Shown here one piece after another: positions 3,576 through 4,685 of a DNA stretch of 29,064 nt. Positions within the stretch are counted from its first letter, which is position 1; each line of letters starts with the position of its first letter. Under the pieces are notes generated by a model, which saw nothing but the letters and a program-made list of their open reading frames with translations, made no database searches and had not been told where the DNA came from. The DNA is from a virus: positions 1 through 29,064 of IMG/VR virus record IMGVR_UViG_3300021962_000474; one strand, given 5' to 3'. The translations under genes and the position numbers were made by a program.

Positions 3576-3604
3576 CAAAATTGTATCAGGAAATACACAC
3601 ATAT

Positions 3605-3634
3605 TTGACTATATAGTATGAATAGGAGTATAAT
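3605..3634 (+). promoter_or_regulatory. Sigma70-type early promoter
   Basis: TTGACT (3605-3610) and a perfect TATAAT (3629-3634) are separated by 18 bases. Transcription would begin near 3641, right before the conserved CGTTCATCC (3645-3653) that opens the glutamine-riboswitch-like region. The box quality is much higher than expected by chance. Confidence 0.85.
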
Positions 3635-3644
3635 AACCTCCTAA

Positions 3645-3901
3645 CGTTCATCCTATGACTAAAGCACTTTTGCTTTTAGCATGGGTTCCACTTCTTTCTG
3701 TTTCAACGCCACGACTTACACAGAATTCATATCCTGTGACTATAAGTTGTGACGCAGCGTGGGAACTAATGGACATCGTTAAAAACGACGATGTAGTCCA
3801 CCAAAGAGTAGAAGACCGATTGCTTTTAGAACTCCGAAAGGATGTGATTCGAAGGTGCTAAAACTGAATAGGACGGAAGTAAGCCGACGCGGAACGGAAC
3901 G
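3645..3901 (+). ncRNA. Glutamine-riboswitch-like element 1, split by an ORF
   Basis: The conserved pieces of the glnA/Downstream-peptide aptamer class, as I remember them, appear in order but separated: CGTTCA (3645-3650), a P2 strand TCCTAT (3651-3656), then after the 68-codon ORF the exact P2 complement ATAGGA (3868-3873), an E-loop-like CGGAAGTAAG (3874-3883), and GGAACG (3896-3901) that can close P1 with CGTTC. The element starts where the upstream promoter would initiate. The family is known from cyanobacteria and marine phages; a P2 loop of over 200 bases holding a gene is unusual. The assignment needs a covariance search. Confidence 0.55.
3655..3861 (+). CDS. Small secreted or membrane-anchored hypothetical protein, 68 aa
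   Basis: Residues 1-17 (MTKALLLLAWVPLLSVS) look like a signal peptide or anchor: a lysine followed by a hydrophobic core. The rest is a soluble acidic helix-rich domain with two cysteines (ISCDAAWELMDIV; C-terminal RRC) that could pair in the periplasm. I believe similar small proteins occur in cyanophages but cannot name a family. The ATG lies in the P2 strand of the riboswitch-like element, and the whole ORF sits in its loop, so its translation could respond to RNA folding. No good Shine-Dalgarno sequence is evident apart from AGGAG far upstream. Confidence 0.7.
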   Translation: MTKALLLLAWVPLLSVSTPRLTQNSYPVTISCDAAWELMDIVKNDDVVHQRVEDRLLLELRKDVIRRC

Positions 3902-3941
3902 TTCATCGGGTAACCGACGCAAACGCCGACTGAAGGAACGC
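3900..3941 (+). ncRNA. Glutamine-riboswitch-like element 2, compact
   Basis: A compact aptamer-like fold lies directly after element 1: P1 CGTTC (3900-3904) with GAACG (3936-3940); P2 TCGG-GTAA-CCGA (3906-3917) with a GNRA tetraloop; internal CGCAAACGCC (3918-3927); conserved CTGAAGGAACGC (3930-3941). Immediately downstream CTCTTT (3941-3946) can pair with AAGGAG (3960-3965), the ribosome binding site of the next ORF, a plausible translational switch. Tandem aptamers controlling short downstream ORFs are known in the Downstream-peptide/glnA class. The internal loop differs from the usual CGGAAGTAGG, so ligand binding is uncertain. Confidence 0.6.
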
Positions 3942-3972
3942 TCTTTAACCTAAAAAACTAAGGAGAACCCTA

Positions 3973-4125
3973 ATGTCTAAAGTCGTATATCGCGGTGTTG
4001 AATATAACACCACAAACCGCCCAAATCAAACATTTAAGCGTGAACCACATGTAGAAATCTACCGTGGAACCATGTTCTATGTTGATGAAAATGGAAACAA
4101 GTCTTCCATGGAGAGGGTAAAATGA
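3973..4125 (+). CDS. DUF4278-like small protein, 50 aa
   Basis: A short protein with the N-terminal motif VVYRGVEY (residues 4-11) and a second partial copy EIYRGTMFYV (28-37). The YRG-x-x-Y motif is typical of small cyanobacterial proteins of the DUF4278 type, whose function is unknown. It has an excellent ribosome binding site (AAGGAG at 3960-3965) that could be masked by the riboswitch-like element upstream. The stop overlaps the next start (ATGA). Position and size fit the downstream peptide for which the RNA motif is named. Confidence 0.8.
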   Translation: MSKVVYRGVEYNTTNRPNQTFKREPHVEIYRGTMFYVDENGNKSSMERVK

Positions 4126-4303: not shown

Positions 4304-4458
4304 TGGAAAACTACACATATCATTATGATGATATGGACAAGGACAACAGACCTCCTGCTTGTTATCAATTAACATACAGAGGTTGCAATTATTGGTCTTG
4401 TTATACCATTCATCTAGATGAATGGTTTGAAAAAATGTTTAAGGCAGAGGGTTCTTGA
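4303..4458 (+). CDS. Small aromatic protein with YRG motif, 51 aa
   Basis: It begins in the TAATG overlap with the membrane peptide. The centre reads QLTYRGCNYW, the same YRG-x-x-Y pattern as the DUF4278-like protein two genes upstream, flanked by three cysteines and many tyrosines. This suggests a related fold, though the match is short. The stop codon lies inside the terminator hairpin that closes this mini-operon. Confidence 0.7.
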   Translation: MENYTYHYDDMDKDNRPPACYQLTYRGCNYWSCYTIHLDEWFEKMFKAEGS

Positions 4459-4474
4459 CGAACCCTCTTTTTTT
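4446..4474 (+). terminator. Rho-independent terminator of the small-peptide operon
   Basis: A perfect 9-bp stem (AGAGGGTTC 4446-4454 with GAACCCTCT 4460-4468) with loop TTGAC is followed by a T run (4469-4474). It contains the stop codon of the preceding gene. The loop plus first stem base is also the -35 box of the next promoter. Confidence 0.93.
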
Positions 4475-4483
4475 GTGTATAAT
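4455..4483 (+). promoter_or_regulatory. Sigma70-type promoter overlapping the terminator
   Basis: TTGACG (4455-4460) and a perfect TATAAT (4478-4483) are exactly 17 bases apart. The -35 box is the terminator loop plus the first base of its 3' arm. It should start the transcript for the 59-aa protein, thyX and downstream genes near 4490. Confidence 0.85.
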
Positions 4484-4505
4484 AGCTTTGTCAGCGTTCA
4501 TATGA

Positions 4506-4685
4506 ATGGATAAAGAGAAACTTAAGTTAATTGTCAGAAACCTTGAATCTCTGGTAGAATGTTTAAAGTCAGAGGTATATTCTGATGTAGATTCATATAA
4601 GATGAACTACGAAGAAGTAGCACCTTACATTACTGATTACGACGAAGTATTTTATGATGGAGACGATGATGGATATCCCGACTGA
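4506..4685 (+). CDS. Acidic hypothetical protein, 59 aa
   Basis: A small acidic protein: an N-terminal helix (KLKLIVRNLESLVECLKSEV) and a very acidic, tyrosine-rich tail (DYDEVFYDGDDDGYPD). I believe similar proteins sit upstream of thyX in other cyanophages but know no function. The start is the ATG at 4506; an overlapping ATG at 4502 stops after three codons. It is the first gene of the transcript from the promoter just upstream and overlaps the thyX start. Confidence 0.75.
   Translation: MDKEKLKLIVRNLESLVECLKSEVYSDVDSYKMNYEEVAPYITDYDEVFYDGDDDGYPD

Follow-up and report, generated by a model that had tools for sequence, protein, structure and literature searches.

Results

The window, by which we mean the whole 29-kb IMG/VR virus record analysed here, carries SpeD, a structured element, a small YRG-motif gene, Td and PhoH, an order resembling that of S-PM2, in which a compact form of the element without a gene occupies the same place beside speD. 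The promoter, the parts of the element and the small gene all lie on the + strand. A sigma-70-like promoter spans 3605-3634 (TTGACT at 3605-3610, an 18-nt spacer, TATAAT at 3629-3634) in a layout shared by relatives, and its predicted start falls a few nucleotides before the CGTTCA of the aptamer. Upstream of it lies an NtcA-box-like GTA-N8-TAC (3583-3596); among the matches listed, GTAN8TAC occurs within 90 nt upstream in 93 of 104 distinct relatives, against 2.8 expected from shuffles, and NtcA sites are used by cyanophages (PMC3037559). The -10 hexamer is itself enclosed by an inverted repeat, TAGGAG...CTCCTA (3623-3643); repeat arms of at least 6 flank it in 74/104 relatives among the matches listed, compared with about 7 in shuffles, and the arm sequences vary between phages. 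Such a repeat might serve as an operator, form a cruciform or act in the RNA.

The downstream gene (3973-4125) encodes 50 amino acids and is preceded by a Shine-Dalgarno sequence, AAGGAG (3960-3965), which is also present in relatives. Pfam DUF4278 (PF14105) matched it at 20.9 bits (E 4.8e-4), below the cut-off of 25.3; because the YRG motif is present we nevertheless call it DUF4278-like. A YRG peptide follows the element in 100 of 102 relatives among the matches listed. A terminator-like hairpin with a T-run (4447-4476) comes after the small downstream genes, and a further CGTTCAT (GCGTTCATATGAATGG, 4494-4515) has TATAAT before it and a small ORF after it, with no 3' half visible.

An earlier note on this DNA had described two tandem glutamine-riboswitch-like elements at 3645-3965, and direct inspection found all of the sequence features it named in place. 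CGTTC occurs at 3645-3649 and 3900-3904; TCCTAT (3651-3656) and ATAGGA (3868-3873) flank a 68-codon ORF (3655-3861); CGGAAGTAAG lies at 3874-3883 and GAAGGAACGC at 3932-3941; and CTCTTT follows at 3941-3946, ahead of the AAGGAG.

Covariance models bore out the identification as a glutamine-aptamer-like RNA, at sub-threshold scores. When 1 kb was compared with all 4,227 Rfam families, RF01739 (Glutamine) matched element 2 (3898-3944) at 31.6 bits (E = 1.1e-4), below the gathering score of 35. Element 1 gave no match to any family in that search, because 211 nt separate its P2 strands; other cyanophages match its 3' half at 92-95% identity. Two compact relatives passed the RF01739 cut-off (L003, 35.6 bits; L005, 35.4 bits) and others scored 24.4-34.2. 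RF01704 (Downstream-peptide, glutamine-II) had no match in the window, and scored compact half A of P-TIM68 at 28.8 bits and that of S-PM2 at 24.6, both below its cut-off of 33. The H-type pseudoknot of glutamine-II, with P2 3' of GAACG, is absent: in half A just a short link separates GAACG from the CGTTC that comes next. Single-copy Rfam models detect only fragments of the composite RNA.

Comparative sequence evidence indicates that the two CGTTCA...GGAACG elements are halves, A and B, of one interlocked RNA. The first CGTTC (3645-3649) would pair with the last GAACG (3936-3940) as outer P1, the partner chosen by RNAalifold and framed by covarying neighbours, and the two middle P1 strands would pair together in an inner hairpin, GAACG-GAA-CGTTC (3892-3904). 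A single P3 joins the halves, its 5' strand AGCCGACG (3882-3889) facing CGCCGACT (3924-3931), as between-half covariation shows. Within P3 the inner module (3892-3920) would form a circularly permuted P1/P2, comprising the inner P1, the covariation-supported P2B hairpin TCGG-GTAA-CCGA (3906-3917), compact in the window and gene-holding in many relatives, and an inner long-range pair G3897:C3920 that relatives conserve as Watson-Crick. P2A is formed by TCCTAT, which holds the AT of the nested start codon, and its complement ATAGGA. The outer long-range pair joins G3876 to C3941, across both halves. AGTA (AGUA; 3878-3881) matches the AGUA side of loop E in ordinary glutamine-I aptamers and GAA (3932-3934), conserved in half B only, the other side; the loop-E motif as such is taken from the literature, where it lies next to the ligand site in glutamine-I (PMC6698751).

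The viral contigs were scanned with two 3' halves, GACGSAARYANGCCGACNCGGAACG for A and GACGCAAANGYYGACNGAAGGAACG for B; frequencies are sample values from the matches listed. In 108 distinct A-B pairs among these matches, the base that follows ACG in A and the one that follows the last GAACG in B were C:G in 63 and G:C in 45, with no exceptions, and a relaxed search yielded at least 221 composites, in which this outer pair was C:G or G:C in 221/221 of those listed. The corresponding pairs within an element were often mismatched among the matches listed (G.G in 42/108 for A, C.C in 43/108 for B). The end base of P3 in A and the first P3 base in B were T:A 67, A:T 19, G:C 19 and T.G 1 times in the same 108 listed pairs, the other two being shifted in register by one base, and a P3 end pair within an element was possible in only about 46% of sequences among the matches listed. 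The inner long-range pair was Watson-Crick in 107 of the 108 A-B pairs and in 209 of the 221 composites from the relaxed search, again among the matches listed. A scan with half B alone agreed: in the further composites that it yielded, S23 was G and P3 was T, as predicted, in each of the 81 A halves that could be read.

On a tree of the peptide encoded downstream, the two sides of P3 changed concordantly in 10 of 10 contrasts that were independent and supported (p = 0.002). Those of the long-range pair did so in 3 of 3, a number too small for a test of its own. Even where P3 has diverged, its strands still complement each other (AGTCA/TGACT, AGTCG/CGACT, ATTCG/CGAAT, AGACAACT/AGTTGACT), and P3 retains a constant C.A mismatch, often with an A.C as well. 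In a 28-sequence alignment the interlocked fold had 95.1% of cells paired and the tandem fold 91.2%; at the deciding pairs the values were 93-100% and 43-64%. RNAalifold picked the interlocked P1s unprompted, and the interlocked fold was stabler in 28/28 compact elements. The P1 strands are invariant across relatives, so their partners are deduced from neighbouring covarying pairs and energy. When the full 351-nt region of the window was folded, the minimum-energy form was not the aptamer, which is unsurprising given its 211-nt coding loop.

In this arrangement the features of RF01739 are found with exchanged partners. P1 CGUUC/GAACG, from half A and half B, closes P2 and P3; the long-range pair 23:60 beside the ligand forms between halves; and by sequence AGUA (half A) and GAA (half B) adjoin P3 at the P1-P3 junction. 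The candidate of tandem copies that each form P1, P3 and the long-range pair internally was tested and failed at the deciding positions, and the earlier note's two separate aptamers gave way to swapped P1 partners and a common P3. Its suggestion that folding might be mutually exclusive pointed in a useful direction, the P1 strands being interchangeable. The bases 3900-3901 proposed as common to both P1 strands are not conserved: the overlap is peculiar to the window's GAACGGAACG, the conserved strand is 3892-3896, and most relatives have GAACG-GAT-CGTTC or GAACG-GGTT-CGTTC at the junction.

The P2 loop exceeds 60 nt in at least 136 distinct elements, 52 in A and 84 in B. The proposal that the P2 loop contains an ORF whose ATG belongs to the stem is upheld by all 136 of these relatives among the matches listed, in which the ATG lies within the P2 5' strand, 3-6 nt from its start, and opens an ORF of 49-69 codons, as does the window gene (3655-3861; 68 amino acids), which has homologues at the same position. 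In 80 of the 84 B genes among the matches listed, the stop codon is the TGA (position +15) within the aptamer's GACTGAAGG. Of the 52 A genes, likewise among the matches listed, 25 stop at the TAA of AAGTAAG and 21 at relative positions -7 to -15, ahead of the P2 3' strand; the nested gene of the window and its closest relatives ends before that strand. The pairing of TCCTAT with ATAGGA is kept in related phages in the sense that the P2 strands of ORF-bearing relatives covary and do not match by chance: gene-bearing long loops had 137/150 cells paired in P2B (107.6 in shuffles) and 68/78 in P2A (61.4 in shuffles). Among the matches listed, 14 of 106 paired gene-bearing elements (~13%) have no ATG base in the uninterrupted P2.

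The nested genes are conserved as proteins, with a median dN/dS of 0.21-0.33 in four families (0.33 in the window's own). Across 20 aligned members Cys32 is invariant and the terminal Cys68 nearly so; the window protein has both, with a hydrophobic N-terminus. The nested proteins of both loops resemble one superfamily, with a hydrophobic N-terminus and two conserved cysteines ~35 residues apart, and may be exported. One nested family switches loop, lying in P2A in some phages and in P2B in others (L079, L165). The window protein had no Pfam, PHROG, PDB sequence or fold match, and tblastn against annotated phages returned nothing; its AlphaFold model is helical and of low confidence (pLDDT 72.9). 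Several nested ORFs are annotated as hypothetical proteins in genomes (T4-GC 429, 430).

Of 95 ordinary viral glutamine-I aptamers, 94 have a P2 no longer than 40 nt and one carries a nested gene. One locus, L250 (5080-5410), holds the same nested family and downstream gene, with a simple P3 loop instead of the inner module; from its sequence we read it as a natural variant, an ordinary glutamine-I aptamer housing a P2 gene. The composites of P-RSM4 (L404) and S-TIM54 (L406) have genes in both P2 loops and a P3 that is fully rewritten yet complementary. In P-SSM4 a manA RNA (184 bits; L007, 1019-1204) lies directly upstream of a gene-bearing composite.

Composites are common, at least 200 having been found, in viruses of marine and freshwater cyanobacteria, and gene-bearing forms occur in sequenced isolates, among them P-SSM4, P-HM2, P-RSM4 and S-TIM54. 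The composite model hit 1 of 151 host-family genomes, on a contig that is probably phage, compared with 54/151 for ordinary RF01739, and the exact half-A pattern occurred in 2 of 84,980 prokaryote species genomes, both Prochlorococcus single-cell or metagenome assemblies; one of these two hits lies on the very contig matched by the composite model. Given this near-absence from prokaryote and host-family genomes, a host origin was rejected and the composite is regarded as essentially confined to cyanophages.

Discussion

We interpret the element as a composite glutamine-riboswitch-like leader of a cyanophage nitrogen-responsive operon whose P2 loops house protein genes, a reading to which we give a probability of roughly two in three. 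Judged from sequence, it would most likely respond to glutamine by switching on the DUF4278-like gene, with transcription from an NtcA-type promoter; expression is likewise turned on by the glutamine riboswitches that precede DUF4278 genes (PMC6316151). In glutamine-I the ligand sits at C1:G59 with G22 and C58, beside the long-range pair (PMC6698751). L-glutamine would bind at the outer site and perhaps at the inner one too, and binding would hold C3941 in the long-range pair with G3876. C3941 has two alternative roles in the window, as the partner of G3876 in the aptamer or as the first base of CTCTTT over AAGGAG; held in the former, it should keep CTCTTT from masking AAGGAG, and the DUF4278-like gene would be translated. 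The anti-Shine-Dalgarno pairing put forward in the earlier note is a possible one, given the complementary sequence and the two-state folding of compact relatives: in constrained folding the ribosome binding site was more accessible with the aptamer closed in 25/27 of them. Modelled accessibility in the G:C class was low even when closed (0.19 vs 0.05), and a CTCTTT-like strand was not obvious in the C:G class.

Since the nested start codon lies inside P2, aptamer folding should hinder nested translation, which would amount to opposite control; since the loops hold genes of 140-225 nt, the aptamer would close only after these have been transcribed. We put forward tentatively, at somewhat under even odds, the full version of this scheme: an interlocked two-site riboswitch that houses genes, in which glutamine shuts the nested start and frees the downstream ribosome binding site, with sensing that is possibly cooperative. 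If so, a single RNA drives two genes in opposite directions.

Two alternatives concern the nature of the RNA. We regard as barely credible a tandem pair of independent glutamine aptamers, in which P1, P2 and P3 all form within each copy and the first P2 holds a gene. Invariant CGTTC and GAACG would let each element close its own P1, RF01739 matches single elements (24.4-35.6 bits), and tandem glnA RNAs have been described (PMC2864571); yet this arrangement, already disfavoured by sequence covariation, leaves the long-range pairs mismatched and the P3 end pair possible in fewer than half of the sequences, is less stable in all 28 compact elements, provides one loop-E side per half only, and does not explain why the inner strands are lost jointly in L250. 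A structured leader for a protein or for a ligand other than glutamine is improbable. It would suit the RF01739 and RF01704 scores near or under cut-off; against it, the outer site has equivalents of the glutamine contacts C1:G59, G22, C58 and the long-range pair (PMC6698751), and the promoter and downstream gene class are nitrogen-related, as for known glutamine riboswitches.

The other alternatives accept the RNA and differ over the nested genes. These may be passengers in a real riboswitch, free of aptamer control, with a P2 apical loop that tolerates inserts; known aptamers vary freely there, and the compact, gene-free composite of S-PM2 stands beside speD as in the window. The order seen exceeds what passengers need, however, with the ATG fixed 3-6 nt into P2, the stops set at conserved aptamer codons in most B genes and many A genes, and such a gene in only one of the ordinary viral aptamers, and we consider this explanation unlikely, if a serious contender. 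More doubtful still is that nested-gene translation controls the downstream gene, as in leader-peptide attenuation, a ribosome in the aptamer core either melting P3/P1 and the anti-RBS helix (positive control) or keeping the aptamer open (negative control). The stops in loop E or P3, within one ribosome footprint of the P1 3' strand, are what this would predict, but the nested gene of the window and its closest relatives, like 21 of the A genes, ends before the P2 3' strand, and conservation as proteins goes beyond what ribosome baits require.

Returning to the composite leader, we conclude that it is a novel architecture within a known riboswitch class. Glutamine riboswitches are known in cyanophages, including a 99-nt glnA match in S-CREM1 (PMC9964418) that actually covers both halves; in the searchable papers, which included few subscription papers, neither aptamer-loop genes nor the interlocked form with swapped P1 strands is described. 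The composite offers a testable route by which phages might tie the simultaneous switching of two genes to the nitrogen state of the host. It is also a natural example of an aptamer hosting a gene.

The outer site resembles glutamine-I (RF01739) in its CGTTC/GAACG P1, P2 hairpin, GACGG..C long-range pair, AGUA/GAA loop-E halves, P3 and DUF4278-like gene downstream, with ON logic assumed. Unlike glutamine-I, the composite contains a second, circularly permuted P1/P2 module in its P3, carries protein genes in its P2 loop or loops, has a long-range pair that may also be C:G, and scores only 24-36 bits in its single halves. The inner site is closer to glutamine-II (RF01704): it keeps CGTTC, ACGC and GAACGG, with CGTTCA-hairpin-ACGC and GAACGG giving the equivalent of the C19:G41 long-range pair. 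It differs in having no loop E, no H-type pseudoknot with its own P2, and a permuted strand order. As in the tandem glnA RNAs (PMC2864571), one leader holds two aptamer-like cores. In the composite, unlike those RNAs, the cores are interlocked, P3 is common and neither half is complete alone. Group I and group II introns carry ORFs in peripheral loops of structured RNA, and the composite shares with them a protein gene in such a loop; it differs from them in lacking an intron core or homing enzyme, and in placing the start codon of its gene within the RNA's own helix.
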